Part shown: one piece after another, positions 33,486 to 54,343 of the stretch
Position numbering within the stretch: position 1 is the first letter of the stretch
Layout of the letters: every line of letters begins with the position of its first letter
Assembly (NCBI GenBank): GCA_030803735.1
Contig: JAURUC010000001.1
Location: 4,092,001-4,156,000 of the forward strand
Length of the DNA: 64,000 bases
DNA from: Actinopolyspora lacussalsi
GTDB lineage: Bacteria; Actinomycetota; Actinomycetes; Mycobacteriales; Pseudonocardiaceae
Direction of reading: 5' to 3'
Notes under the pieces: model-generated
What the model was told of the DNA's origin: nothing
The model's input: only the letters and a program-made list of their open reading frames with translations
The model's database searches: none
Made by a program: the position numbers and the translations under genes

Positions 33486-35660
33486 CTAGTTCTCCGGAAC
33501 GAGTTCGGAACGCTTGCCGTGCCACGACACGTAGAGTTCCTCCCGCGCGCGGGAGCCCGACACGTACAGCAGGTTGCGCTCCCTTGCCCACGCGGCGGGC
33601 AGTTCGTCCTCGGCGACTTCCCTGATGAACGACGGTGGGAAGTCCTTATCGCTGAGACCGACAATGGCCACGGCCCGGAACTCCAGTCCTTTCGCGCGGT
33701 GCATCGTCATCACGCGGACTTGGTTTCCCAGCTTGCTCTCGTCGGTGCTGGCCGCGATTTTCGCCATCGGGACGGCCGCCTCTTCCAGGGCCTCGCCGAT
33801 GTTGCCGGTCTGCATGTGTTCCCGCGCGATGACGGCCATCTCCGACCAGGGGATGCCGGATTCGTACCAGGACCGCAGCCGGCGGATCAGCCCGGTCTTC
33901 TCCTCCGCCCAGTTGTCGTAGCCCCGCGGCACCGGGTCGGGACCGACGAACTCGGAGCGCGCTCCGGTCAGGGACTCCTCGTCCCCGTCGAGGTCGTCGA
34001 CCGTCGGACCGTAGGCCACCTGGATCGACCAGTTCAGTATCTGCTTGGAGGTGCGGTAGTTGACCGTGAGCCGCCGCGAACGACCTCGGGTCTCGATGCC
34101 CAGGCGGGAGAGCACCACCTGCCTGCCGTAGATGCGCTGGTGCGCGTCGCCGACGATGAACAGGTCGTCGTTGCCCTTGCTGATCAGTGATCGGATGAGC
34201 GACCAGTGCACCGGATGTAGGTCCTGCGCCTCGTCGACGATCGCGTGCCGATAGTGCGACAACGCCGATTCGGCCGAACGCTGCGACTCGCCCGATCGCC
34301 CGTCGGACAGCTGCGCCGCGATCGCCGCCGCACGCGCGGAGGCCTGCGTGAACGTGGTCAGGTTCTGGGCGTTGAGGGTCTGGGTGAACCTTTCGAAGAT
34401 CGCCCATAGCTCTGCCCGCTGCGGACGCGAGATCCGTTTGCCGCGTCCACTGCGGGAGGTCTTCAGGTACTCGGAGCGTTCCGTGAGCCCCTGCGCGAGT
34501 ACCACCTCGGACCACTCGCTGCGCAGGAAGTCGATGTCCCAGTTCTCCTCGGCCTGGTCACGCGCCTGCCGCCATACCTGTTTGATCGTCTCCTCGTTCT
34601 CGCCGAGCATCCTGGGCTTCGCGCCGTTGTCCTCGCCCGTGGCGAGCACGCGCTGCGCGAGCGCGTCGATGTGGAGCACTTCGACCCGGTTCAGGATGTC
34701 GGAACCGGCGAGTTCGACGAGCTGGGACTTGATGTCGCGCGCGAGGTTCTTGGTGAAGGTGGTGAACAGTATCTTGGATTCGGAACCCTCGGACTCCAGC
34801 CGCTGTGCCAGGTGCCGTGCCCGGTGGATGGCGGTGACGGTCTTGCCGGTGCCCGCCCCGCCCGTCACGCGGTAGGGGCCCCGCCAGCCGTCGTGATAGG
34901 CCAGTTTGCGCTGCAGCGGGTGCAGCCACACCCGCCAGGCCTTGAAGTCGTCCTCCAGGATCGCGCGCAGTTCGTCGATGTCGCGTCCGTCGGTGAAGTC
35001 GACCCTGGACAGCGGTCGTTCCAGCGCCGTCAGCACGTCGTCGGTGTCGATCTCGTTCTCCTGCTCGATCACCAGGTCCTTCCAGGCGTCCTCGGGGGTG
35101 CGTCCGGCCGCGAGGTCGATCACGGCCTTGCCCTGGACTCCCGGGAGTTCCTCGGCGATGCTCAGCAGTTCGTTCTCGTCGGTGATCGCGACCAGCCGGG
35201 TGGCGATCTCCTCGTCGACGCCGAACTCGCGCAGTTCTCCCGCTTTGACGTGCCGCAGGATCGGCATTGGCCGCGCTTGTCGGGAGCCGCTGCTGCTCGC
35301 GTGGCTGACCGCCTCGTTCAGGGCCGCTTCGTTGACCACTTCCAGGGCACCGGTGACCTCGTTGACTCCGAAGCGGAGCTTGCCCGCATAGGTGTAGGCG
35401 TCGTCGTGCGGTTTGACCGCGACCATCACGTACCCGCACGATTCCGGCAGTTCGATGAGCACCGCCCGCCAGAAGTCCGACACCTTGCCGGTCTTGATGC
35501 GCTTGTCCGTGACCCCCTGCGGCGTTTTGATGTTCAGCCCGGGCAGGTCGGGGTTGGTCTGGAGCTTGACGATGAAGTCCAGCACCTTGTTCTTGATCGA
35601 GTTCTCCAGCTCCTTGTAGGAGCCCTCGAACAGGTCGGATATGACGACTCGTGTGCTCAT
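33486..35660 (-). CDS. UvrD-type helicase with RelE-like N-terminal domain
   Basis: A 724-residue protein. Residues 1-~110 (YKELENSIKNKVLDFIVKLQ, then RIKTGKVSDFWRAVLIELPE) match the beta-alpha layout and key basic residues of RelE/ParE-type folds. From ~240 on it is SF1A helicase: Q motif-like region, Walker A GGAGTGKT (~269), Walker B VDEAQDLHP (~473), motif III VGDAHQRIYG, NYRTS, and TMHRAKGLEF. The start ATG overlaps the stop of the 2,073-residue gene (ATGA), so they are translationally coupled. In context it is likely the processive helicase arm of the defence system. The RelE-like call is weaker than the helicase call. Confidence 0.8.
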   Translation of the reverse strand: MSTRVVISDLFEGSYKELENSIKNKVLDFIVKLQTNPDLPGLNIKTPQGVTDKRIKTGKVSDFWRAVLIELPESCGYVMVAVKPHDDAYTYAGKLRFGVNEVTGALEVVNEAALNEAVSHASSSGSRQARPMPILRHVKAGELREFGVDEEIATRLVAITDENELLSIAEELPGVQGKAVIDLAAGRTPEDAWKDLVIEQENEIDTDDVLTALERPLSRVDFTDGRDIDELRAILEDDFKAWRVWLHPLQRKLAYHDGWRGPYRVTGGAGTGKTVTAIHRARHLAQRLESEGSESKILFTTFTKNLARDIKSQLVELAGSDILNRVEVLHIDALAQRVLATGEDNGAKPRMLGENEETIKQVWRQARDQAEENWDIDFLRSEWSEVVLAQGLTERSEYLKTSRSGRGKRISRPQRAELWAIFERFTQTLNAQNLTTFTQASARAAAIAAQLSDGRSGESQRSAESALSHYRHAIVDEAQDLHPVHWSLIRSLISKGNDDLFIVGDAHQRIYGRQVVLSRLGIETRGRSRRLTVNYRTSKQILNWSIQVAYGPTVDDLDGDEESLTGARSEFVGPDPVPRGYDNWAEEKTGLIRRLRSWYESGIPWSEMAVIAREHMQTGNIGEALEEAAVPMAKIAASTDESKLGNQVRVMTMHRAKGLEFRAVAIVGLSDKDFPPSFIREVAEDELPAAWARERNLLYVSGSRAREELYVSWHGKRSELVPEN

Positions 35661-38600
35661 GCTCGTTTTCCTTCGAAGGCCGCGACGATCTCGTCCACCA
35701 GTTCCTCCTCGGTTGCCACGTCTCGATGGTTGAACACTCGCCAGCCGTGCCGGACCAGCCATTCGTCGCGCGACGCCACGGTGTCGACCACCACGGCGAT
35801 CCGGCTGTCGGGCCAGCAGTACTCGACCTGCCAGAGTTCGCTGTCGCCGACCTCGCCGCCTGCTTCCGGCTCGGGAACGCCGCGTTCCGCGAGTGTCCTG
35901 CCGAGGTTCGTCAGGCTTTCGTCGGTGTACTCGATCACCGTCTTCCAGCCGGGGTGGCTGACCTCGATCCGTGGCATGGACTCGGTCGGGCCGCCCAGCG
36001 CCAGCGGCGGGGTGCGTCCCGTGAACAGTTCCAGGCAGCCGTGGGTCCATATCTCGGCCATCCGCAGCGGCATCGTGTGGCCGTGGCGGGGCAGCGGCAG
36101 GAACTGCAGCAGATTGGACCAGCGGAGCCAGTCGCGCCAGCGCTCGTCGTGGGTGGCGCCGCCCACCTCGCTCGGGCTGTCGTCGAGCACCGCCAGGGCC
36201 CCGACGGTGTCGGCCTCCTGCCCCCCGCCGAGGGATGCCACGAGCGCGATGGGCAGTCCGGACAACCCCACGCAGGGAACCGCCGCCAACTTGCCCTTGC
36301 CGTTGTGGGCGAAGTCCTCTTCCCTCGCCCACGCTTCGAGGGTCGGGCCGAGGGTTTCCCGGGAGCACTTCGTCGGCTGCCCGTTCAGGTGCTCCCGCGA
36401 TTCCAGCATTCCGAAGCAGGTCCGCACCGCGGTCTCGCCCCAGACGTCGTGCTCCGGGTCGCGCAGGTAGTCCAGCAGTGCCCGCATCGGGTTTCCCCAG
36501 AGCAGCGGTGCCCTGTTGTCACCCACTTTCGAACGGGCCTTCCTGGTCACGGTGTCGGCCACCAGACCTCGCAGCTTGCTCTGGTAGCCGTCCGTGAGGC
36601 GGGCGAAGTCCTCGACGTCCTCCCAGGTGAGTGACCAAACCCGGTAGCCCCGCGTGCGGAGCGCGTCGCGCTTGCGCGCGTCGTCGGCGGTCCGGTCGCC
36701 CCGCGGTGAGGCGTGGAAGGCCTTGCCGTCGAGGTAGACCGCGACCGGTGCGTCCTGGGCGTCCTGCCGGTTGAGCAGGAAATCGGGTTCGGTGGGGACC
36801 TCGCCGCCCAGTTGGACCAGCGGTCGCATCGTCCAGCGGCGCGGTTCGCCGTCCGGGCTGAGCAGTCGGATGTCGAGTTCCTCGCCCCTGCTGCCCATGG
36901 CGGAGCTCCAGGACTGGCCCCGCTGCGTGTCCACCCACCGCTTGAGCTGTTCGCGGAACCGCAGTTCCAGTTCGGACAGTTGCACCGAGGAGATGTCGAT
37001 CCCGGTGACGCTGTCGATGTCCTCCACGTGCCACGCGTCCAGCAGGTCGGCGAGCAGCTCCCTGGCGAGGCGCCGGTTGGCGTGCTCCACCTCGTTCGGC
37101 GCGGCCACTCCCAGCAGGCAGCGGTGGCAGGCGGCGTGTCCATCGTGCTGGCACCGGCAGTTGCTCAGGATGTCGTGGGCCTGCAGCAGGATGCGTCGCA
37201 TCCGCTCGGGTTCGCCGAGCCGGTCGAGGTAGCCGGTGCCGCCGGGCACGGTGTCGTGCAGCACCAGGAACTGACGGGTGCGCCCGTACTCGTCCGGCAT
37301 GCGCGCGGTCACCACGTCCAGGTGCTGCGGGTCGCCGCCGAAGTCGGCCCGCAGCCCCAGCAGCAGCGCCGTCTTGAACGAGGTCAGGCGCAGCTCGATC
37401 TGGAAGGTCGACACCGGCAGCAGCAGCCGCACCGCCTGTGTGGTCAGCTCGTGGCTGAGCAGCAGCTCTTCCCAGCTGTTCGCGGTGCCGCGCCGGGTGG
37501 AGCACCAGCCCCGATGGCGGACGTTGTCCTCCTTGCCCTGCTGCCAGACCACGCCGCAGTAGGTGCAGGTGGTGAACCGGGTGGCGGGTTGGCGTTCGCC
37601 CGCGATGGAGACGTCGGGTGCCGGGCGGTCGGCGCGGCCCATGTTGACGGTGCGGATGGTGGCCTGCCGCGCGTACTCCGCGCCGAACGCGCGTTCGGGG
37701 AGCCGCCAGGCGTTCGCCACGTGCTCGGGCGGGATGTCCACTCCGGTCGCGGTGTGGAACCGGGTGCGCACCCGGTCCTCGGTCTCGTCCTCGATGAGGG
37801 CGTCGTCCCTGCGGTGCACGGCCGAGACCCTCCGCAGTTCCAGCACCTTGTGCACCGCTCCGGTGTCGGAGACCGCGGTGCCGCCGCACCGGGGGCAGTG
37901 ACCGGGAGCGGGGGTGGTGCGCTCGGTGCCCCAGCCGCAGTCCGGGCACAACCGGTGATGCCGCCAGTGCGGCTGCCCGGCGGGGCCGATCTCCAGCGCG
38001 TCGACGCTGACCCGGTAGCCCTGCGCGTAGAACACGGCGCCGGGTGCGAACTCGGTCAGCGCGGCGCGGCTGCCCCTGCCGTAGGTGTGCTTGAGGGTTC
38101 GCGGGCTCTTGCCGTCGCCGTCGTCGGTGGTCCACCACAGCGAGACATCCAGTTCGGTGTGGTCGTCCCGCAGGTTGTAGTTCGGCAGCAGCGACAGCTG
38201 CCCCAGGCCGAGGAGAGCGTTCTCCTCCCGGTTGTCCTTGACCATCCTGGACAGTGCGTTCCACTCGCCCGACCAGCGGCGGCGGTCGTCCCGCTGCGTG
38301 TCGTCCAGGTGGCCCTGCCGGTCCAGCCGCGCGATGGCCTCGGCGAGTTCGCCCTGCCGCCGCGTCAGTTCCCGCTGGTGCTCCGACCACTCCGACACCG
38401 TCCGCGCCACGGCCTTCGGCAGCCCGTCCGAGGCGAACTCGCGCACGCCGTCCGCCGCGACCCGGTCCAGCTTGTCGCCGTACAGCGCCAGGAACCGTTC
38501 CGCCAGTTCGGCCGCGCGGGCGGTGACGGTGTCCACGAACTTCCGCAGCCAGCTGCCCTCGGCCAGCCCGTCCTCCAGCAGCGCGCCGAGCCTGCCCGGC

Positions 38601-41600
38601 ATGTTCCCGCCGGGATCCAGTTCGCCCGCGGCCACCCGGTCCAGGCAGAACGCGAAGTACTGCCTGCACAACAGCTCGCTGGCCCGCAGGTAGGCGGCGG
38701 GCGGCGTGATCTCGCCGTTGATGAGGTTCGTGGGATCGGACAGGTAGTACAGGTCGCGGGGCTGGCTGGGCACGGTGGCCAGCACCAGCGCGTTCCCGGT
38801 GGCGCGCCCGGCGCGTCCCACGCGCTGCAGGTAGTTGGCCGGGCCGCGCGGCAGCGAGGCCAGCCCCACGGTGGAGAGGTCGCCGATGTCGATACCTAGT
38901 TCCAGCGTGGGGGTGCAGGCCAGCACGTTCGGGTCGATCGGCGAGTCCCCGGCCGCGAAGCGGCGTTCCACCCGCTGCCGTTCGCTACCGTCCAGCAGCG
39001 CGGTGTGCTCGTGCGAGACCAGGTGCCGCAGCCGCCCGGCGTGGTAGAGGCGACGGTAAAAGTCGTCGCCGCGAACCGGGTGGGCCACCAACCGTCCGGT
39101 GCAGCGCATCCGGGGGCACACCGTCCCCAGCCACAACTCGAACCGGTTCGGCGTGCTCGGCTGGATGTGGTGGCACTTCGGGCAGCGCAACTGGGCCGCC
39201 GCCAGCTCGTCCGCCCCGAGCGGTCGCAGTTCCACCCGTTCCGGGGCCAGCCCGAACACGTACGCGTCGGTGCGGGAGCTGGCGGCGACCAGCGGCGCGT
39301 GCTCGTGCTCGCCGAGCAGCCGCACCACCGGCTCCACCAGCGCGCGGGCCTCCGCCTGGCTGGTTCCCAGGCAGCGCACGGTCCAGTCGGTCAGCCACGA
39401 GTCGCCGCGCGGCCGGAGACTGTCGAACTCGCTCTTGGCGGCGGTGGAGAAGAACACGGGCGCGGCCCGGTTCTTCGGGAACTTCTGCATCCCCTGTGGA
39501 CTGCCGCCCCAGATGGGATAGCGTTTGCCGTCCTGGTTGATGTAGTTCGCCAGCCACGGGTGGGTGATCCCGCCCCGGCGGCGCAGCCGGTCGAGCAGGC
39601 CGAGCAGCCAGCGTTGGTAGGCGGGTTCCTCCGGCAGGAAACCGCGCTCCGGCAGGTTCTCGTGGATGTCGCGGGCCAGCCCGGCGTAGTGCGCCAGGTC
39701 CACCCGGTAGTCCACGCCCAGCGCCCCGGTGAGTTCGAGCGTGCGGCCCAGCCGGGAGCGCAGCCCCACTTCGAGGTGGGTTTGGAACCGCAGCCGGTTG
39801 GCGAGCAGTTCGCGTCGTTTCCCGCTCCGGTCGTGGTCCAGCCATTCCCCCTCGTAACCCAGCCGTCGCGCGAAGTCCGGCGGCGCGATGGTGTAGAGAT
39901 CGCGGGTGGGGCTGTCGGCGAGTTCCTCGGTGGCCTCGGCGAGGCTGCGCGGTTGGCCGTCCAGCGCGCGCAGGATGGCCGAGCGCAGGTTGAACTGGAA
40001 GGAACGTCCCTCGACGAACGCCGCCCGGTGCGCCGCGTCCTGCACCGAGTCGGTGAACACCAGGGTTTTCTTCTCGCCGTCGGCGACCAGGTTGGATCCG
40101 AACAGCTGGGTCAGCGCCACGCTGATCAGTGTCGCCACCGAGGACCCGAGAAAGCGGATCGCGTCGTCGGTCTCGCAGGAGGGGCAGCGCTGTGCTTCGG
40201 CGGCATCCGCGTCCGGCGTGATCAGCACCGGGATTCCGGGTTCGTCGTCGGCGCCCGGGTAGGCGAGCGTGAGCTTGTCGATGTGGCGCGCGCCCGGTTC
40301 GTCCTCGTTAGCCAGCAGCACGGTGCGCAGGTTCTTGGGGTCGCGGACGCTGGCCCGCCAGATCTTCTCCGGACTGCCCTCCAGCTCCTCGCCCAGCTCG
40401 GTGGCCAGCGCCTGCCAGCCCGAACGCCCGCAGACCCGGCAGTAGGCAGCCGGGAGGTAGCGGTACTCGTTGTCCGGCGGCCCGTCGTGCCACCAGGCGA
40501 AACCCGGCTCGGTGGAGACGGCGCGCAGCATCCTGGTGACCTCGCGCACCCACAGCTGCACCTCCAGGTTCAGCAGCGGTCGTTCACCCGAGTCGGTCGC
40601 GATTCGTGCGGTCGAGATCAGCGCGAGGAATCGCCGCAGCGCCCGCCGCACGTCGTGCGGGGAGTGCTGCTTGGCCACGCCCCACTGCAGCACCCCGGAG
40701 TTGCTGACCGCGTCCACCGCTTCGGCCTGGGTCAGCGGGCCGCCGGAAAGCGCCTGCACCACCGCGCGGGTGAGGAAGCTGTGGCTGAGCCGCTCGCCGA
40801 GCGTCCGCCGGTCCGGGACGCGCTCGCCCAGGAAGGCCTCCGCCAGCGGTTGCCACGAGCCCTCGGCGGCCACATCCGGCTCCGGTGGCGCGTTGACGGT
40901 CTCGACGTCGGGCACGTCGAGCCCGAAGTCGATGTCGGAGACCACTTCGGCCGCGTCCAGCCGTTCCTCGGTGACCACCGCTTCCGGCGGGAACGGGGTG
41001 CCGAACACCGTTTCGGCGAACTCGCGCAGCTCGGCCGAGCGCGTGGTCCCGCCGAGGGTGGCCGAGGTCGCCACCGGGGTTATCCGGCCGAGCGGGCGGC
41101 CCGGCTCGGCCACCCGCAGGGTCGTTCCGAGCCTGCGCAGCAGCATCGCCACGTCGGTGCCCTGCGCGCCGTCGTAGGTGTGGAACTCGTCGAGCACCAG
41201 GTAGCGCAGGCTCGTGGTCGACTCCGACCACAGCGGCGCGTCGTCGGAGCGCAGCAGCAGCAGGTCGAGCATCTTGTAGTTGGTCAGCAGGATGTCCGGC
41301 GGGTGGTCCCGCAGCGCCCGGCGCGAGTCGATGAGGTGCCCGCGGCCGAGCGTGCTGTGCTGCTCCCCGTCGCCGGTGTAGACCCCGGCGTTGACCTGGT
41401 GCAGCCTCGGGTCGTCGTGCAGCTGCTCGGCCAGCCGCCGCGCCTGGTCGCCGACCAGCGCGTTCATGGGGTAGAGCAGGATCGCCTTGATGCCCGTTTC
41501 CCCGCGAGCCCTGGCGCGGGCGGCGTGGTCCAGGATCGGCACCAGGAAGGACTCGGTCTTGCCGGAGCCGGTGCCGGTGGTGATGATCGTCGGCTCGGCC

Positions 41601-41878
41601 GGATCGTCGCGGGTGGACAGCCGCTCGAAGGCACGCGCCTGGTGCCGGAACGGCCGGAAACCGGTGGGCTGCCAGTCCAGCGGGCTGCGCCAGTCGGCGT
41701 CCACCGAGCGGAACGGGGTGCGCAGCCGCAGGTAAGGACCCCGGAAGATCCCGTGCTTCGAACCGAGCAGGAAATCCTCCAGCGCCGCCCGCGCCTCGTC
41801 GTCGGCCAACGCGAAGGTGGTGGACAGGTACTCGGTGACGGCCCGCTTGGTCTCTTCCGCCAGTAACGAGGGATACAT
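35657..41878 (-). CDS. YprA-family helicase with DUF1998 and C-terminal nuclease-like domains (DruE-like)
   Basis: A 2,073-residue SF2 helicase. Walker A TGTGSGKTES at 101-110, DEFH at 230-233, SAT ~250 later motifs, and TLELGIDIGDLSTVGL plus YLQRVGRAGRATGN (motifs V-VI) give a YprA/Lhr-like core. Further on are a CPxC zinc pair region (CPDCGWGTERTTPAPGHCPR), the DUF1998/MZB zinc motif CRCQHDGHAACHRCLLG, and a PD-(D/E)XK/Vsr-like segment EPDFLLNRQD...VYLDGKAFH...RGYRVWSLTWEDV. A second, degenerate copy of that layout ends the protein (DSRIAVVVDT..HGWRVFNHRDV). Length and domain order resemble DruE of Druantia; DISARM splits the same parts into DrmA and DrmB. The start ATG has AAGGAAAG upstream. 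Confidence 0.85.
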   Translation of the reverse strand: MYPSLLAEETKRAVTEYLSTTFALADDEARAALEDFLLGSKHGIFRGPYLRLRTPFRSVDADWRSPLDWQPTGFRPFRHQARAFERLSTRDDPAEPTIITTGTGSGKTESFLVPILDHAARARARGETGIKAILLYPMNALVGDQARRLAEQLHDDPRLHQVNAGVYTGDGEQHSTLGRGHLIDSRRALRDHPPDILLTNYKMLDLLLLRSDDAPLWSESTTSLRYLVLDEFHTYDGAQGTDVAMLLRRLGTTLRVAEPGRPLGRITPVATSATLGGTTRSAELREFAETVFGTPFPPEAVVTEERLDAAEVVSDIDFGLDVPDVETVNAPPEPDVAAEGSWQPLAEAFLGERVPDRRTLGERLSHSFLTRAVVQALSGGPLTQAEAVDAVSNSGVLQWGVAKQHSPHDVRRALRRFLALISTARIATDSGERPLLNLEVQLWVREVTRMLRAVSTEPGFAWWHDGPPDNEYRYLPAAYCRVCGRSGWQALATELGEELEGSPEKIWRASVRDPKNLRTVLLANEDEPGARHIDKLTLAYPGADDEPGIPVLITPDADAAEAQRCPSCETDDAIRFLGSSVATLISVALTQLFGSNLVADGEKKTLVFTDSVQDAAHRAAFVEGRSFQFNLRSAILRALDGQPRSLAEATEELADSPTRDLYTIAPPDFARRLGYEGEWLDHDRSGKRRELLANRLRFQTHLEVGLRSRLGRTLELTGALGVDYRVDLAHYAGLARDIHENLPERGFLPEEPAYQRWLLGLLDRLRRRGGITHPWLANYINQDGKRYPIWGGSPQGMQKFPKNRAAPVFFSTAAKSEFDSLRPRGDSWLTDWTVRCLGTSQAEARALVEPVVRLLGEHEHAPLVAASSRTDAYVFGLAPERVELRPLGADELAAAQLRCPKCHHIQPSTPNRFELWLGTVCPRMRCTGRLVAHPVRGDDFYRRLYHAGRLRHLVSHEHTALLDGSERQRVERRFAAGDSPIDPNVLACTPTLELGIDIGDLSTVGLASLPRGPANYLQRVGRAGRATGNALVLATVPSQPRDLYYLSDPTNLINGEITPPAAYLRASELLCRQYFAFCLDRVAAGELDPGGNMPGRLGALLEDGLAEGSWLRKFVDTVTARAAELAERFLALYGDKLDRVAADGVREFASDGLPKAVARTVSEWSEHQRELTRRQGELAEAIARLDRQGHLDDTQRDDRRRWSGEWNALSRMVKDNREENALLGLGQLSLLPNYNLRDDHTELDVSLWWTTDDGDGKSPRTLKHTYGRGSRAALTEFAPGAVFYAQGYRVSVDALEIGPAGQPHWRHHRLCPDCGWGTERTTPAPGHCPRCGGTAVSDTGAVHKVLELRRVSAVHRRDDALIEDETEDRVRTRFHTATGVDIPPEHVANAWRLPERAFGAEYARQATIRTVNMGRADRPAPDVSIAGERQPATRFTTCTYCGVVWQQGKEDNVRHRGWCSTRRGTANSWEELLLSHELTTQAVRLLLPVSTFQIELRLTSFKTALLLGLRADFGGDPQHLDVVTARMPDEYGRTRQFLVLHDTVPGGTGYLDRLGEPERMRRILLQAHDILSNCRCQHDGHAACHRCLLGVAAPNEVEHANRRLARELLADLLDAWHVEDIDSVTGIDISSVQLSELELRFREQLKRWVDTQRGQSWSSAMGSRGEELDIRLLSPDGEPRRWTMRPLVQLGGEVPTEPDFLLNRQDAQDAPVAVYLDGKAFHASPRGDRTADDARKRDALRTRGYRVWSLTWEDVEDFARLTDGYQSKLRGLVADTVTRKARSKVGDNRAPLLWGNPMRALLDYLRDPEHDVWGETAVRTCFGMLESREHLNGQPTKCSRETLGPTLEAWAREEDFAHNGKGKLAAVPCVGLSGLPIALVASLGGGQEADTVGALAVLDDSPSEVGGATHDERWRDWLRWSNLLQFLPLPRHGHTMPLRMAEIWTHGCLELFTGRTPPLALGGPTESMPRIEVSHPGWKTVIEYTDESLTNLGRTLAERGVPEPEAGGEVGDSELWQVEYCWPDSRIAVVVDTVASRDEWLVRHGWRVFNHRDVATEEELVDEIVAAFEGKRA

Positions 41879-42001
41879 CGGGATTCTTTCCTTCCCCAGC
41901 GGCTGTGCTGCGCCCCGCGTTGATCATCGCTTATCGGGCCGGGCGCGTCGCGTACGGTTACCGAGTCGTCACTTCATGCGGAACATTCTTCCGGTGCGGA
42001 G

Positions 42002-42931: not shown

Positions 42932-42935
42932 TCCG

Positions 42936-45900: not shown

Positions 45901-46703
45901 AACTCCCGCTCGCGTTCGGGCGCGTTCGCCAGCGCTTCGGAGACGTCCACGCCCTTGGCGTCCAGTTCGGACAGCCGTTGCAGCGGCAGCAGGATGCCGC
46001 CGGTGCCGTCCGGGCGCAGCGTGTGGCCCAGGGTGACTTCCCACATCTGGTTGGGGAACTCGGTGGGGCCGTTGGTGGGCCACCTGCCGGGCATGGTGAT
46101 CCTGTCGACCAACCCGGCTCCCACCAACAGCCGCCGCCCGGCCTGCTCGAAGGGCGAGTGCTTGAGGTAGAAGAACACCAGCGACTGTTCCGCCCGCACG
46201 TCCCGGAAGAACGTTTCCAGCATCGCCCGCTGGTTGTCGGCGTGCAGCAGCCAGGGGGAGTTGTCCCACCCCAGCGCGTCCAGCGCCAGCTGTTCCTTGT
46301 CCGGGGAGTACTCCGGAACGTGGTGTTGGCGCAGCACCTCGTCGGTGTGTTCGGTGTTGAGCCAGTAGTACGGCGTGACGTGCGTCGAGTAGGCGGGCAG
46401 TTCCAGCGTGGTTTCGGAGATGTTCTGCAGCGCGGAGTGCCACGAATAGGGGTGTTTCTTCGGGACCGGCTGCTCTCGTGAGCTGAGGAAGCCCGCGCGT
46501 TCGGAGACGCACGGTAGTTTCTTCGGGTTCAGCTCGGCGAAGGGTCTGCCCGCGTTCTCGGTCTCGTAGTCGTCCTCGCGGTTCTCCCCGATGTTCTTCA
46601 ACAGCACGCAGGAACTGTTGGAACTCGGGTCGTGGCACACCGAGCCGTTCCAGCCCGCGTCGTGCCAGGGCACCCTTACCGACAGATGGCGCACGTTGTT
46701 CAC
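42936..46703 (-). CDS. RecD-like helicase with C-terminal nuclease-like domain
   Basis: The 1,255-residue protein starts GTG 46703, whose GTGA overlaps the methyltransferase stop. The N-terminal ~600 residues are unassigned. Walker A GPAGTGKTT (~634), Walker B VVDEASML (~716), VGDPRQLPP, and the C-terminal RecA motif ALTVHKSQGSEFG with MLYTALTRQSEKIVI give a RecD2/TraI-like SF1B helicase. The C-terminal ~130 residues (EVIIAEILEELHPGRW..., PDFTI at ~1160, YWEHLGM at ~1177) match a PD-(D/E)XK-like nuclease layout with EHL in place of ExK. It is unusual to find this between a defence methyltransferase and a toxin-antitoxin pair. Confidence 0.85.
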   Translation of the reverse strand: MNNVRHLSVRVPWHDAGWNGSVCHDPSSNSSCVLLKNIGENREDDYETENAGRPFAELNPKKLPCVSERAGFLSSREQPVPKKHPYSWHSALQNISETTLELPAYSTHVTPYYWLNTEHTDEVLRQHHVPEYSPDKEQLALDALGWDNSPWLLHADNQRAMLETFFRDVRAEQSLVFFYLKHSPFEQAGRRLLVGAGLVDRITMPGRWPTNGPTEFPNQMWEVTLGHTLRPDGTGGILLPLQRLSELDAKGVDVSEALANAPEREREFSYVTEHVPQDTAVATLLELSRAAHAAHELGCELPNRSLEWLDEQLAQTWRRRGPSPGLPGVLSRLGWEQPAFAAHALGEAAGDGEDPWPLLTDALEGREVPEPLGTLATKPRRKIWSKLDEQWRAALRLLARFDLSAEEIDRILDGTTSFEITPEELLENPYDLVTSTVDDDEPISFTVIDRGCYPDPAISERHPLPVSEPFEDPVDQRRVEAALTETVAEAQQEGHTLLPRAEAVERAQRLTPTRPMKLTDTTLSGLDLLPEDLDADPEYNWPPLAHTELADGECAYKLRSAITRVNTINSFLANLRAAEPHPVPDDLGSELAAILSPEDSDENADEEDPAEQRARTEKQQALRELYRSRCTVLNGPAGTGKTTLIRALAQRDEVSERGVLLLAPTGKAQVQLSNKVGGTAKTLAAFLGPAGRYDGESARYRATGDPSSRQRYGTVVVDEASMLTEDMLDALLDALVPPDRLVLVGDPRQLPPIGAGRPFVDLEHTARQGHDGSWPRVSDGWAELTVLRRQRESGRTRDDLMLARWFGGDELPEGFDETWQRLRNEESMPTLRAVPWRGRTPEQVIDEVLAEELHVDPADGGRSFAASYGATVDDFVSYNEAPEACEQWQLLSPVRGRGHGTVELNRHLKRTHREFELKKATKWPKYRNVPKPLGSERIVLGDKVVNLRNQMLRSWSRETGQTREYVANGDIGVVTGRIARKGQKAPWETQARFSSQPEKRMTVNGALSGEDPSIELAWALTVHKSQGSEFGTVFLMLPAGAWNLSREMLYTALTRQSEKIVICHEGPLEDLMRLSDSTRSDAARRFTDLNRSPDLREITAGGKGEKATVDSGLLHITSSNIAVRSKNEVIIAEILEELHPGRWQYESPLVGDDDTVRLPDFTIESANGDKFYWEHLGMLDEPDYAAAWERKKAWYAEQGVLPREAGGGPRGTLISTEDRDGVNAREWKELAESLLGDGPRRPERGGGKKRAPARE

Positions 46704-49700
46704 TGGTCGTTCTCCTGAGATCCGAGACGTCGGGCGAAGTCCTGGTAGGCGGCGGTCATCTCCCGCTCGCGGTCCACCGGGGTGATCGGTGGTTCGTAGC
46801 GGTCGAGCAGGTCGCCGCTGTCCTGCTCGTTGAGGTACGCCTGCAGCAGCTTGAAGTCGTCCTTGTGCTGCTTGACGCCGTGCGCGTGGTGGTCCTTGGC
46901 GATCTTGCGGCCCAGGTTGTCGAACCACATGTTGTACTCGTACTTGCGCAGCACCGCGAACTGCCCGCGATACATCAGGCACAGCTGCTCGGCGGTCAGC
47001 CCCAGCAGCAGCGCGGCGAGCGCGTCGAGCTCCACCAGCGCGGCCCGGCGCTCGAACTCCGAACGCAGCGGGGTCTCCCAGTCCCACTCCTGGTTGGACA
47101 CCCCCAGCTCGGGCCAGTCGGAGAACGGGGTGGTCCAGCTGTCCGCGGCGAAGCCCCGCTCGTAGAGCTCCTCCCACAACGGCGCGTAGTCCCGCGTGAG
47201 GCAGTTCAACCGCAGCGCGCGCAGCAGCAGCATCGGCGCGGCCGGGTGGTCGAGCGGGGCGGGGAAGCGTCTGATCAGCTCATCGGAAATATTCGCTTTC
47301 CCGCTGATCTTTACGAAATAATCAAACGGGATCGATGTCCAAAGCCCACCCATGAACAGAGTTTGGTAATTTGTCTCGGTGGATAGACTCATCACTGAGT
47401 GGATATGAGCCGGTCCCGGTGGAATTATTGATGCGATTAGCGATCGCTCGGACCCTGGCTGTGTCATAGCGCGCCAGGCGAGGCGGTAGAAGTCGGTGTA
47501 GGGCCGCCCGTTCCAGTGGGTGAGTCCGGCCTCGTAATTCTCCCGATCGGTGGCGCGCTGGTAGTTGGTGCGCGGGAGCACCGTTTCCGGCAGTTCCTCC
47601 GGATCCCAGTCGGAGTAGTCGAGGTTGCTCTTGCAGTTCTCGTTGGGTTCCTTGCCGAACGGGGTGGCCACGGAGAACTGCGGCCCCTGCAGGATTACCT
47701 CGTCCCAGCTCGACGGGTATTCCGTCCGCCACTCGATGAAGCCGTCCTCCTTGGCGCCCTTCTCGTGCCAGCCGCTGGACCACTGGTAGTCGAGGCCGGC
47801 CATCCGCCTGGTCTGTTCCGAGACGGCGCCGAGCGCGTCGAGCTGTTCGCGGGTCACCGGCCGCAGCAGCCGGGCCTGCGGTGCCGGGGTACCCGGCTCG
47901 TCGAACAGCGCCGCCCACTGGGCCAGAGTGCGTTCGGTGATCTCCACGACGCGCGAGGCGTGCGGCCGCAGGTCCCAACCGCCCGAGGGATACTGGATTC
48001 CGGGGATCTCGGTCGAACCGTCGTGCTGCAGCGAGCCCTCCAGGGTCTCCGGCACCAGTAGGTTGGCGACCTGCCGAAAGCTGATCTCTCCCGGATAGCC
48101 GTATACCTGGACGCCGTAGATGGTCTGGTGATGCACATCGTCGAAGAGCTGGGCTTCGTTGATGAACTGCCAGTGCCTACGCAGCCGCCGATAGGTCGCC
48201 TCACGCAGTTTCCCGGCCTTGGGGTCGGTGAAGTGACTCTCCGGATGCAGCAGCCCGACGACGCCGGAGTCGTGCATGGAGCGCCAGGAACGCTCCATGA
48301 AGTTGGTGTAGAGGTTGGTCTGCACCCCGTGCAGCACGGGATGCTCCACCGCTGATCCGAGGTGCTCGTTGAGTCCGGCCCAGGAGCTCAGCTCCCCCAG
48401 GTACCGCTCGGTGGCGCCGGGATCCGCGAGGATTTCCGAGCGCAGTCGCTGGAAAGTCTCCGGCGGAATCTTCTCGCGCAGCACGAAGTACGGGTCGAAC
48501 TCGGCCAGCGTCTGGTCGTCGTTCCACGTGGGCCGCACCCACGGCGGGTTCCCGAGCTGCAGGTCGAATCCGCCGCCCGCGAAGACCTGCGCGAAGTCCA
48601 GCTCCCAGTGGAAGAAGCCCTCCCGCTGCGAGATCTCGCGGGCGGTGCCCAGCCAGGGGTGCGCCACGTACAGCATGGTCACCGAGCGCATGCCGGAGTA
48701 GCTCTTCTCCAGCTCGTCCATATCGGCCAGTTCGTGGAACCCGGCCACGCTCTCGGCCAGCTCGGCCTGGTTGCCCGGGTCCCGCTTGCCGCCGGAGCCG
48801 AGCAGCCCTTCCAGCATGCTCAGCCACTGCTCCAGGTCCGGCGGCTGCACCTCGGTGGTGACCGGCCAGAAGAACAGCGCGCACCAGGCGTCCATCGCCA
48901 GCCGCAGCCGCTGGTACGGCCCGTCCGGGTCGTTCAGTTCCCGCTCCACCTCCTCGCGGGTGACGGCGGCGGTCTCGGAACCGCTCGTCGCGCCCCACAC
49001 CCCGATCTCGCGGGACACCTCGCGTTCGCTGATCTCCAGCCGCCGTCGGGTCAGCTCCCACAGCCGCTCCACGCGCCGCGCCAGCCCGCGCAGCCGCTGC
49101 ACCTGCTTCTCGGTGGGCTTCTTGGTGACGGACTTGGCCCACTCCCGGAGCGCCTTGGCGCGGTCCGGCGCGAGTTCCTTGGCCTGCTTCACCCCGGCGA
49201 CCGAGCCCCAACCGGCCGCTGGCAGCAGGAAGTGGTGGATCTCGCCGTCCGGGAGCGCGCCCTGGCTCAGCGGGCGCTCGGTGGGCGGGGTGCCGGTCCA
49301 GCTGCGCTTGGCCTTGCCCAGCGAGGTGAGGTCGTAGGTGGCACGGCGCGCGCCCACCAGCGAGTTGCCGCGCTTGAGATGCAGCCCGAACCAGGGTGCC
49401 CGCAGGCCGGGGTGCATCACGTTCAGCCACAGCGAGATCTCGGCCAGCTCGCGGGCCGTGTCGTTGAGGTCCACCCCGTAGCAGCGGTGCAGCGCCAAGT
49501 GGGCCTTCACCTTCTGCAGCTCGTCGCGGTAGCGCTCCGGGTCGATGGTCTCGTCCAGCTCCAGCTGCCGCCGCCGCAGGTACTCCTCGGCCAGCTGGTT
49601 GATCGCCTCGTTCAGGAAGGCGCCGCTGCCCATCGCGGGCTCGCACACCCGGTAGTCCAGGATGGCTTCGGCCGGGGTGTGCTCGCTCAGCAGCTCCCGC

Positions 49701-51310
49701 AGCGAATGCCGCACCACGCACCTGGTCAGCACCTCCGGGGTGTAGAACGAGGCGCTGCGCTGCCGATCCCGCCCGGAGAGCCGGTAGACGAAGGTGCCCG
49801 CCGGGTGCGTCACGTTGCTGCGTTCCTCGGTGAACGGGTCCTCCCGGCGTACCACGTGCCGTTCCTCGTACTGCCCGAGGTTCTCCTCCGGCACCAGCCA
49901 GGTGCCCTTGCTCGGGTCGCCGTCCTTGGCCAGCTCCACCAGCCTGCGGTCGGCGATGAACCCGCTGTATGCCATCAGTCCCTCGTAAACCGCGCCGAGC
50001 TGGTTGATGCCCAGCTGCGCGTACGAGACGTAACCGGCTCGGCCGCCGCTGCCCTTGGACGGTTTGGACAGCAGCAGCATCGACAGCACCCGCTGCAGCA
50101 CCGCGTTGCTCAGGTCCACATCGTCGATGTGGTGTGCGTGCCCGCTGTCGAACAGGTCCGCGCGCAGCGGCTCGAACACCAGCCCGTCGCTCTCCGGGTG
50201 CTCGGTGCCGTGGCCGGTGTTGACCAGCCGGAACAGCAGCCGCAGCGAGTCGTGCAGGTGGTGGCCCTCGCGGGACTTGCCGGTCAGCGGCTTGTGGATC
50301 AGCTCGCGCAGCCGGTCCAGCCCGTAGCCAGCGTCGTACTCCGGCGCCCCCACCGGCAGGATGCCCAGCTCGGGGCGGGCCTCGGCGTAGAGCAGGAACA
50401 GGATGCGGTAGAGGAACCGCAGCGACTGGGTGGTCAGTTCCCTGGGCAGCTCGGGCATGTCCGCCACGGCCTCGCCGCGCTGCCTGCGCTTGTCGATCAC
50501 CTCGTTGGCGATCAGCTCCACCGAGACCCGCAGGCCCTCGCGCAGCTCCTCGCTGACGCCGACCGCGTGCTTGATCGACTCGTCGGTGAATTCCGCGAGC
50601 AGGCTGGTGCTCTCCGCCGAGGGCAGCAGCACGTCGGCCGAGGCGAGCCCGGCGTGCCAGGCCAGCTCGCCGGTGGCCTTGTCGTCCTTCCTGGCCAGCG
50701 CGGTGTGCACGTCGAAGGCCAGGTAGCGGCCCTCGGCCCAGCGGTGCACATCGGACAGCACCAGCCAGCCGCCGGAGACCACCAGCACGAACCGGGGCGC
50801 CTCCTCGGTCAGCAGCAGCCGCTGCACCGCCTGGGTGACCGCGGGGATCTCCTCGACCTTCTCCTTGCCGGTGCGCAGCCGAACCGGCTCCAGCAGCCCG
50901 CCGTCCGCGCCGAACAGGTCGTCCACATCGTCCACCGGGGCCGCCTGCAGCACGTGCAGCGCCTCACCGGAGGCGGACTGGCAGCGCGCCAGCAGCGGCA
51001 CCTCCACCGGTGTCTCGGACTGCCTCGTGTGCAGCACCGTGGGGTCGGGCGTGATCCCGAGAGCCTCCAGCAGGATGCCGTGCAGCTCGGTCACCGCCCG
51101 GCCGAAGTCCGCTTCCCGAGGCGCGGGCAGCGCGGCCTTGGCGTTGACGAAGCGCCCGCTGATCCCGGACAGCCCCCGCAGCGGGCTGTGCTTGCCGTGG
51201 CTCGCGCGCTCCCGCCACTCCTTGGTCAGCGTCTTGAGCTTGCCGGGGAAGGCTTCGGAGAGCCAGTGCGGGGACAGGAAGTCGCCGACGTTGTGGATCG
51301 AGTCGTACAT
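46700..51310 (-). CDS. Eco57I/PglX-type adenine methyltransferase (DrmMI-like)
   Basis: A 1,536-residue class I N6-adenine methyltransferase: motif I CEPAMGSGAFLNEA near residue 555 (AdoMet) and the catalytic NPPW motif near 920 (LGNPPWVRPTW), spaced as in Eco57I/PglX enzymes, with a long N-terminal helical region and a C-terminal target-recognition region. Related very large methyltransferases mark host DNA in DISARM (DrmMI) and BREX. ATG at 51310 follows the 198-bp gap after the SNF2 gene; the stop overlaps the RecD-like start by GTGA. Confidence 0.9.
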   Translation of the reverse strand: MYDSIHNVGDFLSPHWLSEAFPGKLKTLTKEWRERASHGKHSPLRGLSGISGRFVNAKAALPAPREADFGRAVTELHGILLEALGITPDPTVLHTRQSETPVEVPLLARCQSASGEALHVLQAAPVDDVDDLFGADGGLLEPVRLRTGKEKVEEIPAVTQAVQRLLLTEEAPRFVLVVSGGWLVLSDVHRWAEGRYLAFDVHTALARKDDKATGELAWHAGLASADVLLPSAESTSLLAEFTDESIKHAVGVSEELREGLRVSVELIANEVIDKRRQRGEAVADMPELPRELTTQSLRFLYRILFLLYAEARPELGILPVGAPEYDAGYGLDRLRELIHKPLTGKSREGHHLHDSLRLLFRLVNTGHGTEHPESDGLVFEPLRADLFDSGHAHHIDDVDLSNAVLQRVLSMLLLSKPSKGSGGRAGYVSYAQLGINQLGAVYEGLMAYSGFIADRRLVELAKDGDPSKGTWLVPEENLGQYEERHVVRREDPFTEERSNVTHPAGTFVYRLSGRDRQRSASFYTPEVLTRCVVRHSLRELLSEHTPAEAILDYRVCEPAMGSGAFLNEAINQLAEEYLRRRQLELDETIDPERYRDELQKVKAHLALHRCYGVDLNDTARELAEISLWLNVMHPGLRAPWFGLHLKRGNSLVGARRATYDLTSLGKAKRSWTGTPPTERPLSQGALPDGEIHHFLLPAAGWGSVAGVKQAKELAPDRAKALREWAKSVTKKPTEKQVQRLRGLARRVERLWELTRRRLEISEREVSREIGVWGATSGSETAAVTREEVERELNDPDGPYQRLRLAMDAWCALFFWPVTTEVQPPDLEQWLSMLEGLLGSGGKRDPGNQAELAESVAGFHELADMDELEKSYSGMRSVTMLYVAHPWLGTAREISQREGFFHWELDFAQVFAGGGFDLQLGNPPWVRPTWNDDQTLAEFDPYFVLREKIPPETFQRLRSEILADPGATERYLGELSSWAGLNEHLGSAVEHPVLHGVQTNLYTNFMERSWRSMHDSGVVGLLHPESHFTDPKAGKLREATYRRLRRHWQFINEAQLFDDVHHQTIYGVQVYGYPGEISFRQVANLLVPETLEGSLQHDGSTEIPGIQYPSGGWDLRPHASRVVEITERTLAQWAALFDEPGTPAPQARLLRPVTREQLDALGAVSEQTRRMAGLDYQWSSGWHEKGAKEDGFIEWRTEYPSSWDEVILQGPQFSVATPFGKEPNENCKSNLDYSDWDPEELPETVLPRTNYQRATDRENYEAGLTHWNGRPYTDFYRLAWRAMTQPGSERSLIASIIPPGPAHIHSVMSLSTETNYQTLFMGGLWTSIPFDYFVKISGKANISDELIRRFPAPLDHPAAPMLLLRALRLNCLTRDYAPLWEELYERGFAADSWTTPFSDWPELGVSNQEWDWETPLRSEFERRAALVELDALAALLLGLTAEQLCLMYRGQFAVLRKYEYNMWFDNLGRKIAKDHHAHGVKQHKDDFKLLQAYLNEQDSGDLLDRYEPPITPVDREREMTAAYQDFARRLGSQENDQ

Positions 51311-51508
51311 CCTCGTTGCCTTCGTCGTTTCGGGTGGCGCAGTGCTGGTTGGCGTGGTGCCGGTTGGCGCGGTGTCGGTGGCGGGGCGACGCCGACGGGC
51401 TGGTCGCTGCCGGTGGTGCGGTGGCCGCTGCGGCGCCGCCGCGCGGCGGGTCGGGTTCGGACGGCGGGCTCGGGTTCGGACGGTCGAGCGGCCGAGCCCG
51501 GCGAGGTC
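51311..51508. other. Repetitive gap between SNF2-like and methyltransferase genes
   Basis: This 198-bp stretch is low-complexity: units like GGTTGGCGYGGTG and GGGTTCGGACGG recur with small changes (51346-51370 and 51446-51482). No gene is supported in it. It breaks the otherwise tightly packed defence gene set and may reflect repeat-mediated instability. Confidence 0.5.
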
Positions 51509-54343
51509 CTATTCCCCCGACCGGTCGGCAGGCACGATCAGCCCCACCACCCGCACGAACGGCTCGCCCGAGACGGCCAGTGAGTCGATCAGCCGCGAGG
51601 TCTCGTCGTGGGTGCTGCGCAGACCCTGCTTGCGGTCGTTCGAGGCGTTGTTGTCCTCGGCGATCGACAGCGCCAGCTGCCGCCATTCGCTCAGTCGCTC
51701 GCGCTGCCGGTCCAGCCGCGCGAGCAGATCGCTCTCCATCTCCTCGCGCCTGCGGCGCAGGTCCCGCTCGGCCGCGTCCACCGCCTCCGGCACCAGCGGC
51801 TGTGCCTTGTCCAGCCACTCCCGCACGCCGCCGGGGTTGCGGACCCGCTCCCGCAGCCCCGCCCGCTCCAGGGTCTCGTGCAGCTCGCCCACCACGGGCT
51901 CGTCGGGCAGGCCACTGACCGCGCCCCAGTGGTTGAGCACCGCCTGACCCAGTGAGTTGGACCAGCTGGCCTGGGTGAGGAACACCGGCTCGGCCACCGC
52001 CGCTGCCATCACCGGCGCCTCGTCCCGTTCGAACCGGGCCAGCGCGCGGGTGGCCGCCCACTCCAGCACCGGGTGGATCGGGGCGAGGTAGCTGACGTCC
52101 GGCCAGGTGGTGTTCTCGTCCGCGCGGGCCCTGGCGAGCCGCTGCTCGGCGAAAGCGGGCTGGGCGGAAACCCTGATCCTGGTTCCGATGCCGCGTTCCG
52201 AGCGGTAGCTCTCCGGCAGGTCGTTCAACCGCTGCGCCAGGTCCTGGGGCGTGTTGAACGCCAGCAGGTCGGTCTCCTCGTCGCGGTGGATCTCCAGTTT
52301 CTCGCCGTCGGGCGAGATCTCCTCCAGCGCCTCGGCGAGGAAGTTGTCGTCGTCGTCGAACAGGGTGCGCTTGGGCGCGGTCGGGACCGCGGTGTCCTCG
52401 GCGTGCTCCCCGCCGTTGGCCAGCAGCGCCGCGAACGGGTCGAGCTCATCCGAATCGGCGTCGGGAATCTCCGCCGCGATGTCGCCGCCGTCGCGGAGCA
52501 GCTTCATGACCTCTTCCTCCTCCAGCTGCTCGTCCCGCAGGTTCAGCAGCGCGCCCGCGTCGCCCAGCGCCTGGTTGGCGGCCTGCTCCTTGGCGAGCAG
52601 CTTGGTCACCACCCGCAGCTCGCTGTCGGTGGCGGTGTCCTCGTCGCCCAGCGCCAGCGCGGTGATCTCCGGCGGGTTCTCCTGCAGGTAGCGGTCGATG
52701 CGGCCGTTGCGCTGCTGGATGCGGATGAAGCTCCACGGCAGGTCGTAGTGCACCACCCGGTGGCACTGGCGGTGCAGGTTGATGCCCTCCGAGGCCATGT
52801 CGCTGGCCAGCAGCACCCGCACGCTGCTGGAGGCCAGCTCGAAGTCCTGCACGATCCGTTGCACCTCGGCGTCCGGCAGCTGGGCGTGCAGCATCGCCAG
52901 CGCTCGTTCGGGAAGCCCCAGCCGCTGTCGAAGCGTGTCGCGCAGCCAGCTCAGCGTGTCGATGCGTTCGGAGAACACCACCACGCGGGCCTCGCCATCG
53001 GCGGAGACGCCGACCTCGCGGAGGTAGTCCAGCAGCGCGTCGAACTTGGCGGGACCCCGCTCGCGCACCTTGTCGGTCAGCTCGTCCAGCCGGTGCAGCG
53101 CGGAGGTCTCGGTCGCGACGTCGGTGGCCTCGGTGCGTTCGCCCAGGGTTCGCAGCCGCCGCTGGATGCTGCTGTGCAGGGCCTGCGGCGAGGACAGGAA
53201 CGCCTTGAACAGCGTCCACGGGAACAGCGTGCCGCCCTTGCCGCTGACCGGGGACTTACCGGCCGAGGGGCGCAGCCACACGTCGCGGAGCTCGTCCAGC
53301 ACGGCCCGTTCCGCCGCGCTGGGGGTGACCGGGCGGATGTCGGGTTCCTCGCGCGCGGCCCAGCGGTGCCCGACCTCCAGCTGCACGTCCTCGGAGTTGC
53401 GGTGCCTGCGCACGTAGAGGTGCTCGATGTCGGCGGCCCGGTAGTCGCTCGGGTCGGCGATCGCGGTCGGCTCCAGCAGGTTCACCAGCTCGGCGAACGA
53501 CTCGGGCTTGCCGTTGTGCGGTGTGGCGCTGGCCAGGATCAGCGCGTCGGTCTGCCGGGCCAGCAGCCGCGCCAGCTCGTTGTTCTGGGTGCCCCGGTTG
53601 ATGAGGTTGTGGCACTCGTCGATGACCACCGCGTCCCAGTGCTGGTCCTTGAGGTGGTGCTTGTAGCGCGCCGGGTTCTTGAGCGTGTCGATCGAGACGA
53701 TCGCGCGGCGGTAGTAGCTGAACGGGTTCCGCGAGGCGGGCAGCCGCTGGCGCACCTGCTGGATGCCGTCCGAGTCCAGCCGCACCAGCGGGATGGCGTA
53801 GCGCGTCCACATCTCGTGCTGGAACTGCTCCAGCACCGCGCGGGGCGTGACCACCAGGATGCGCTCGCCCCGACCGCGCTCGATCAGCTCGGTCAGCGTG
53901 ATGCCGATCTCCAGGGTTTTGCCCAGCCCCACGGCGTCGCCGATCAGCACCCGCGGCCGGAGGTTGGACAGCGCCTGGTGCGCCGGGCGCAGCTGGTACT
54001 CCATGTCGTCGGCCAGACCCCGGTGGCCGGTGACGATGTCGGTGCTGCTCACCGGGGTGGAACTCTGCCGCAGCAGCGATTCCAGCCACAGCCGGGACCG
54101 GCGGAAACCCGGACTGTCGTCGGCGGTCAGGCGCGTCTTGCGCGGATCCAGCACCTCGATCTCGTCGAGCGCGGTGTAGAACACCGCGTCCTGGTCGCGA
54201 ACGAGTTCCGAGGCCCCCGTGGCCTCGACCCGCATGCCGTCCCGGCCCGCGTTCCGAACCGCGCGAACCAGCCACTCCTCGTCACGTACGACGATCTGCG
54301 CCCCCACCGGAATATCCGGTGCCTCCGTTAGCCCTGCTGACAC
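51509..54343 (-). CDS. SNF2-family helicase (DrmD-like)
   Basis: The 944-residue protein is an SNF2/SWI2-type SF2 ATPase: Walker A DAVGLGKT at 136-143, DECH 242-245, SATP 272-275, and C-terminal SDMASEGINLHRQ with IQQRNGRIDRY (motifs V-VI). Long acidic and helical C-terminal part. Same arrangement and size as DrmD, the SNF2 protein of class 1 DISARM, and like drmD it precedes the methyltransferase gene in transcription order. GTG at 54343 chosen; a longer frame to 54385 is open. It is the promoter-proximal gene of the defence array. Confidence 0.88.
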   Translation of the reverse strand: MSAGLTEAPDIPVGAQIVVRDEEWLVRAVRNAGRDGMRVEATGASELVRDQDAVFYTALDEIEVLDPRKTRLTADDSPGFRRSRLWLESLLRQSSTPVSSTDIVTGHRGLADDMEYQLRPAHQALSNLRPRVLIGDAVGLGKTLEIGITLTELIERGRGERILVVTPRAVLEQFQHEMWTRYAIPLVRLDSDGIQQVRQRLPASRNPFSYYRRAIVSIDTLKNPARYKHHLKDQHWDAVVIDECHNLINRGTQNNELARLLARQTDALILASATPHNGKPESFAELVNLLEPTAIADPSDYRAADIEHLYVRRHRNSEDVQLEVGHRWAAREEPDIRPVTPSAAERAVLDELRDVWLRPSAGKSPVSGKGGTLFPWTLFKAFLSSPQALHSSIQRRLRTLGERTEATDVATETSALHRLDELTDKVRERGPAKFDALLDYLREVGVSADGEARVVVFSERIDTLSWLRDTLRQRLGLPERALAMLHAQLPDAEVQRIVQDFELASSSVRVLLASDMASEGINLHRQCHRVVHYDLPWSFIRIQQRNGRIDRYLQENPPEITALALGDEDTATDSELRVVTKLLAKEQAANQALGDAGALLNLRDEQLEEEEVMKLLRDGGDIAAEIPDADSDELDPFAALLANGGEHAEDTAVPTAPKRTLFDDDDNFLAEALEEISPDGEKLEIHRDEETDLLAFNTPQDLAQRLNDLPESYRSERGIGTRIRVSAQPAFAEQRLARARADENTTWPDVSYLAPIHPVLEWAATRALARFERDEAPVMAAAVAEPVFLTQASWSNSLGQAVLNHWGAVSGLPDEPVVGELHETLERAGLRERVRNPGGVREWLDKAQPLVPEAVDAAERDLRRRREEMESDLLARLDRQRERLSEWRQLALSIAEDNNASNDRKQGLRSTHDETSRLIDSLAVSGEPFVRVVGLIVPADRSGE

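Follow-up and report, generated by a model that had tools for sequence, protein, structure and literature searches.

ARMADA type II is the described system that the locus studied here most resembles. As set out by Bell et al. (2025; PMC12458937), it consists of ArmA (a BrxHII/RapA-like helicase), ArmB (a PglX-like methyltransferase), ArmC (a YprA helicase with a Vsr-type tail), and ArmD (a GajB-like helicase with a RelE-like head), encoded in a gene order that is termed strict, and ARMADA is proposed there as a link joining DISARM and Druantia. The experiments published in that paper used E. coli systems, in which all four Arm proteins were needed and the outcome was non-abortive. Hma, BREX, and type I R-M loci have also been described as having defence genes lodged within them (PMC11411939, citing Payne et al. 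2024; PMC12839542; PMC12988326), and the families designated HEC are Hma-embedded candidates (PMC12988326).

We analyzed a stretch of 64,000 nucleotides of the Actinopolyspora lacussalsi genome (hereafter, the window), in which an array of seven genes lies on the minus strand. In the direction of transcription, these are armA (51509..54343; a SNF2/RapA helicase of the BrxHII/DrmD-like kind, 944 aa assuming a start at 54343), armB (46700..51310; an Eco57I/PglX-like DNA methyltransferase, 1536 aa), a gene for a RecD-like SF1 helicase of the PDC-S68 family (42936..46703; 1255 aa), genes for a Phd/HicB-type antitoxin (42424..42840; 138 aa) and a HicA-like toxin (42002..42427; 141 aa), armC (35657..41878; a YprA-family helicase with MZB/DUF1998 and a putative Vsr-like C-terminal region, 2073 aa), and armD (33486..35660; a putative RelE-like head fused to a GajB/UvrD-type helicase, 724 aa). 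The order A-B-C-D is thus preserved but not contiguous, with 4.8 kb from armB to armC, and the three genes embedded there are referred to below as guests. The open reading frames claimed in the first-pass annotation are present at their positions on the minus strand, and its domain calls hold in Pfam (SNF2/Helicase_C, Eco57I, AAA_30/UvrD_C_2, PHD_like, DEAD/MZB (DUF1998), and UvrD). Its description of the cluster as coupled fits the 4-nt overlaps at three junctions (ArmB/RecD, antitoxin/toxin, and ArmC/ArmD) but not the gaps of 198 nt between armA and armB, 95 nt between the RecD-like and antitoxin genes, and 123 nt between the toxin gene and armC.

The Arm proteins were compared with those of a reference ARMADA II, the E. 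coli plasmid copy NZ_LT985234.1, in which the residues discussed in the ARMADA paper are found at the paper's numbers. It was found that the identity to the reference was 34% for ArmA (over 960 columns), 36% for ArmB, 29% for ArmC, and 31% for ArmD (over 726 columns), with the alignment spanning most of each protein. All eight residues mutated in PMC12458937 are kept in the window: K142 and D242 of ArmA, G561 (GxG) and N921 (NPPW) of ArmB, K107 and D230 of ArmC, and K273 and D476 of ArmD. ArmA, with the Pfam domains SNF2-rel_dom and Helicase_C and a score of 286 bits on the PADLOC DrmD model, corresponds to the BrxHII/RapA-like first gene of type II. ArmB contains the Pfam Eco57I domain, and its best PADLOC score was to REase_MTase_IIG (1066 bits), with a score on DrmMI as well. 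The Pfam DEAD and MZB (DUF1998) domains are found within the single ArmC protein, which scored best on DruE3 (320 bits), and ArmD, encoded by the last gene, has the Pfam domains UvrD-helicase and UvrD_C and scored best on GajB (105 bits). For the head of ArmD, a profile search of the PDB gave RelE/YoeB-type toxins as the top matches, which were weak (best E 0.014), and the profile of the ArmC tail, compared with PDB sequences, retrieved designed proteins and a few weak rows, with no Vsr among them. The RelE-like head of ArmD and the Vsr-like tail of ArmC are each weakly supported by these tests. With Foldseek alone, neither predicted model (the toxin or the ArmC tail) had a match at E ≤ 0.001, the fold comparison of these two covering the families present in the VIA-align rows.

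The window locus shares with ARMADA type II the gene order, the domain types, and the catalytic residues, may share the RelE-like head of ArmD (a weak match here), and differs in that armB and armC are parted by the PDC-S68 gene and the toxin-antitoxin pair. Judged from its sequence, the locus is very probably an ARMADA type II system (armA-armB and armC-armD) with a PDC-S68 gene and a HicA-like toxin/antitoxin pair lodged at the armB/armC junction, and an anti-phage role is predicted for it from its genes. The first-pass annotation had considered the array unassignable to a named system, and had offered an exact match to a named subtype as grounds for abandoning that view; because 4 of the 7 genes match ARMADA type II, the view has in this part been given up.

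The array lies in a strain-specific island of ~23 kb (33336..56535, the ends being approximate), delimited by comparison of the flanks in congeners. The left flank was present in 9 of 9 congeneric genomes tested, and 8 of the 9 had the right flank at a distance of 0.4–3.2 kb from it; for G006, the remaining genome, the fetched stretch did not contain the right flank. The genome G190, of the same species, had no ArmC match and other genes at this site. The closeness of the flanks in congeners and the lack of ArmC in G190 are the basis for calling the island strain-specific. Also within the island, and divergent from armA, is a RosmerTA-like pair on the plus strand (54543–56419), comprising an RmrT-like gene (54543..55247; PADLOC RmrT, 146 bits) and an RmrA-like gene (55298..56419; PADLOC RmrA, 445 bits), the latter with the Pfam domains HTH_3 and Peptidase_M78 (an HTH plus an M78 peptidase). 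Just to the right of the island, a plus-strand gene at 58381–59262 matched Pfam CRISPR_assoc PF08798 (Cas6e/CasE; E 2.8e-62); no other cas gene was recognized among the proteins scanned, and this gene is possibly an orphan. Imperfect direct repeats of 108 nt and 85 nt, in two copies each, are present at 60215–60708, and related copies recur in congeners. These repeats at 60.2–60.7 kb do not look like a CRISPR array.

The state of each junction was evaluated in 113 ArmC loci, consisting of 30 from the same order, the best 80 of 583 relatives, the window, one from E. coli, and one from a Tsukamurella plasmid. The loci were picked for their resemblance to ArmC of the window, and Actinomycetota account for nearly all of them. 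Removal of 5 duplicates, of L076 (in which ArmC is broken by stops), and of L077 (a doubtful ArmC on a very long branch) left 106 loci, which include those from the best 80 of 583. In this set, no A-B gap exceeded 212 nt (59 of 59 measured cases) and no C-D gap exceeded 108 nt (101 of 101 measured cases), whereas the 76 measured B-C gaps comprised 53 of up to 300 nt, one of 426 nt, and 22 of 1.0–9.6 kb, including that of the window. A junction was called open when B-C exceeded 900 nt. Among the 59 loci with all three junctions measured, B-C was open in 11 and A-B and C-D in none; excluding the window, the comparison was 10 of 58 versus 0 of 58 (Fisher p = 0.0006, on an assumption of independent loci that does not hold). 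Locus L133 was scored as closed, though its ArmB and ArmC look truncated (C-D estimate, −1092), and in 11 of the 106 loci, the upstream DNA was too short for B-C scoring. In a further 19 loci (21 before the two doubtful loci were dropped), armB was missing from 9 kb or more of sequence upstream of armC. Three of these were followed: in 2, armA-armB lay ~14.5 kb upstream with the orientation unchanged, and in the other the contig ended first. Wherever the armB start was visible along with 3.2 kb or more of adjoining sequence, armA was present, and armD was likewise present wherever the armC stop was visible along with 2.5 kb or more. Among the junctions measured in related loci, recurrent opening was confined to armB/armC.

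When the open and closed states were placed on a tree of ArmC, 13 changes were counted over the 94 rows with a state and 10 over the 75 measured rows, at least 7 of the latter forced by supported branches. This was a quick tree with SH-aLRT support only, made of ArmC relatives only (no DISARM, Druantia, or ARMADA I rows; the Tsukamurella plasmid was kept out because ArmC is split there), on which gains and losses are indistinguishable. In Micromonospora, the two states alternate among close relatives: the AB and CD halves are ~6–15 kb apart with varied genes between them in L052, L054, L056, and L058, and are adjacent in the close relatives L050 and L057, while in L053 there was no armB in ~21 kb. 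The junction is closed in L048, whose ArmC is the one most closely related to that of the window (73% identical over the part used). The 426-nt armB-armC gap of L048 was considered as the site of a decayed guest; it had no significant similarity to the guests, and only the armB end was matched. In E. coli, a 5.5-kb query across the junction matched 518 of 5426 genomes, 497 of them with at least 80% of the query covered, and the junction was spanned without insertion (~5.5 kb) in 39 of 40 of the matches listed.

ArmC relatives were also found on E. coli plasmids typed as conjugative (L177, L180, and plasmid matches) and on 2 Klebsiella plasmids; the L177 plasmid, which is of the conjugative type, carries all four arm genes and has a TEM-24 gene nearby. 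On the Tsukamurella plasmid (L178), ARMADA II is directly downstream of a helicase/DUF1998 pair, with UvrD helicase, DUF262, and very-short-patch-repair genes nearby in a dense plasmid-borne defence cluster, and armC is annotated as two genes.

The contents of the open junctions were examined by applying PADLOC to 13 hand-picked loci of the 21 non-window measured open loci, with guest open reading frames called by a simple codon-composition script. A PADLOC match to a guest was obtained in 12 of the 13: HEC-01A/B in L143 and L158, HEC-05 in L097, a GmrSD/Orf5/HEC-06-like guest in L054 and L100, HEC-09 NYN in L104, a ShosA-like guest in L096, RmrA-like and PDC-S70-like guests in L126 (Modestobacter, so that an RmrA-like gene, also present in the window's island, occurs there in the armB/armC slot), a caspase-helicase and a Mko-like helicase in L142, NsnB in L144, PD-Lambda-2_C in L141, and a weak PDC-S69 (2.7e-5) in L135. 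The guest of L116 (DUF3800) had no PADLOC match. Because HEC stands for Hma-embedded candidate, ARMADA has some of its embedded families in common with Hma. As in Hma, BREX, and type I R-M loci, defence genes are found inside a multigene system, and HEC-01, HEC-05, and HEC-09 recur in ARMADA II; the differences are that the host here is ARMADA II and that one junction is used. The window guests are all co-directional with the operon, as were 575 of 575 predicted guest residues in L096, 906 of 1042 in L100, and 1378 of 1674 in L143, whereas the value was 0 in L104, L105, L112, L116, L124, and L126. These opposite-strand guests in several open loci indicate that some of the opening may stem from loose rearrangement of islands.

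A tentative interpretation of these results is that in Actinomycetota the armB/armC junction may be a dedicated cargo slot. On this view, AB and CD would be modules regulated separately and held in cis by selection, and the guests, drawn from many defence families (PDC-S68, HEC-01/05/09, GmrSD, ShosA-like, RosmerA-like, and toxin-antitoxin), would be interchangeable back-up effectors, their expression dependent on the host system, that fire when ARMADA fails. It is rather unlikely, in our view, that the opening reflects only ordinary turnover of a defence island, with AB and CD as separate operons drifting apart and no special slot. Opposite-strand genes, XRE/DUF5753 regulators, and genes annotated without a function do fill several of the openings, as such turnover would have it, but the other measured junctions never open, order and orientation are held across ~14.5 kb in the two loci that were followed, and the open and closed states alternate among the close Micromonospora relatives.

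Regarding the guests of the window, the RecD-like protein is a full-length match to the PADLOC-DB candidate family PDC-S68 (1393 bits, positions 4–1218 of 1221), differing from that family at large in lying here within an ARMADA operon, where it is coupled to armB by a 4-nt overlap with the armB stop. Its Pfam domains are AAA_30 and UvrD_C_2, and the helicase core resembles RecD2, under the model cut-off (186 of 500 bits). The C-terminal pattern E..PD..E (E1128, P1159-D1160, and E1174) is invariant in 30 of 30 aligned sequences, which suggests that the C-terminus is a PD-(D/E)xK-type nuclease. Dissemination of PDC-S68 by viruses or plasmids was considered: a scan of viral_contigs with this single protein, which covers close relatives only, yielded no relative, and a plasmid search gave 6 records, 2 of which covered at least 80% of the query. 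The term 'PDC-S68' was not found in the literature searched.

In a sample of 298 genomes of the order, PDC-S68 was found in 7 (E ≤ 1e-60) and ArmC in 30 (E ≤ 1e-40, still including the doubtful L076 and L077), and both were found only in the window's genome. In a sample of 394 genomes of the class, the numbers were 7 and 41 (both at E ≤ 1e-60), with both present in the window's genome, G425, G553, and G595; excluding the window, ArmC was in 3 of 6 PDC-S68 genomes versus 37 of 387 others (p = 0.016). The co-occurrence in the class sample is weak, and a functional link is possible. ARMADA genes were near PDC-S68 in 2 (G425 and G595) of 13 non-window loci, for which the fetched stretch was mostly 20 kb (12 scored by tblastn and 1 by annotation), and weak ArmA-like matches (66–155 bits) in L079, L081, and L083 were taken as other SNF2 helicases. 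From the ArmC side, PDC-S68 was in the fetched stretch of 1 of 80 loci (L153, a MAG; best 80 of 583 relatives) and of 0 of the 30 others. Its position relative to ARMADA was divergent upstream of armA in L174 (G425), convergent after armD in L176 (G595), and downstream of armD in L153. A constant ARMADA component was rejected, because co-occurrence is rare and the position differs each time, and PDC-S68 is read as a frequent neighbour of ARMADA.

The antitoxin matched Pfam PHD_like, and its relatives, most of those listed being 138 aa long, are labelled in their source records as prevent-host-death or HicB family antitoxin. The toxin had no HicA match in Pfam or NCBIfam. The pair may be of the HicBA type, in that the predicted toxin fold is close to 1whz, the antitoxin relatives are often named HicB family, and the pair has its own upstream region; it differs from such systems in the Phd-like N-terminus of the window antitoxin and the longer C-terminal helical part of the window toxin. 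Neither protein was matched in the 30 plus 80 other ArmC loci (5 duplicates among them, the 80 being the best 80 of 583). The window at 41994–42931 aligned with L193:5112–6049 of the congener G005 over 938 bp at 92%, compared with 72–80% for the nearest flanking matches, and G005 holds the toxin-antitoxin cassette at the same chromosomal site without ARMADA. This difference in identity suggests recent movement independent of ARMADA, and the cassette has probably moved recently into one hot spot.

The possibility that PDC-S68 and the toxin-antitoxin pair are instead true components of an enlarged, undescribed six- or seven-gene ARMADA subtype appears unlikely. The shared orientation and the recD/armB 4-nt overlap would agree with it, as would PDC-S68 beside ARMADA genes in G425, G595, and the MAG and the presence of ArmC in half of the non-window PDC-S68 genomes of the class. 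Against it are the changing position of PDC-S68 in L174, L176, and L153, the lack of a second genome with both among the 297 others of the order, the nearness of ARMADA in just 2 of 13 PDC-S68 loci, and the toxin and antitoxin that are unmatched in the 30 plus 80 ArmC loci (best 80 of 583). Because the place of the guests with respect to ARMADA varies, and almost none of the other ARMADA loci seen contain them, the most fitting description of the array is a single named system to which guests have been added. The composite nature put forward in the first-pass annotation is borne out in this sense.

It is highly improbable that the window locus is a DISARM class 1 or Druantia system with substitutions, for although ArmA, ArmB, and ArmC score on DrmD, DrmMI, and DruE models, respectively, and the locus shares a SNF2 helicase and methyltransferase with DISARM class 1 and a YprA helicase with Druantia, the ArmA score on NCBIfam DrmD is 306.5 bits against a cut-off of 610, a RelE-UvrD gene is present, the helicase and MZB/DUF1998 are in one protein, and neither a separate DrmB (DUF1998) or DrmC (PLD) gene nor any other Druantia gene, including a DruE partner, was recognized in the array. 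The DruE partner genes are DruH in Druantia type III and others in types I and II. The first-pass annotation had noted both the absence of DrmC and the one giant protein in place of DrmA/DrmB, and these observations stand; its DISARM/Druantia hybrid came close, ARMADA being described as a link between the two, but the four genes match ARMADA type II itself.

In the main text of the ARMADA paper (PMC12458937), 'RecD' has 0 occurrences and 'embed' is used of islands and protein folds only. No other paper centred on ARMADA was found in the literature searched, the word occurring, for example, in PMC13192584 and PMC12904381. What is new here is the armB/armC guest site in ARMADA II, the lodging of defence genes inside host systems being already known.

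The domains of the Arm proteins suggest a model in which ArmB would mark self DNA by adenine methylation, and invading DNA would be engaged and cut by the translocase ArmA and by the helicase ArmC with its putative Vsr-like nuclease, with help from ArmD. The targets would be unmarked or replicating phage DNA, which ArmA, ArmC, and ArmD would recognize, unwind, and cut, and the defence may, like that described in E. coli, be direct and non-abortive. As an additional and independent activity, PDC-S68 probably unwinds and degrades phage DNA, and the toxin-antitoxin pair is probably an addiction module or a last-resort shut-off. AB and CD would act as a pair of modules retained in cis, and a guest lodged between the two may profit from being inherited along with a useful system.

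A probable name can now be given to this seemingly unassignable array, and an actinobacterial ARMADA II with embedded guests is described. Guest families known from Hma turn up between armB and armC, and as a working rule, genes found there are good candidate defence genes. The independence of the guests, whether autonomous, synergistic, or back-up, is made directly testable.
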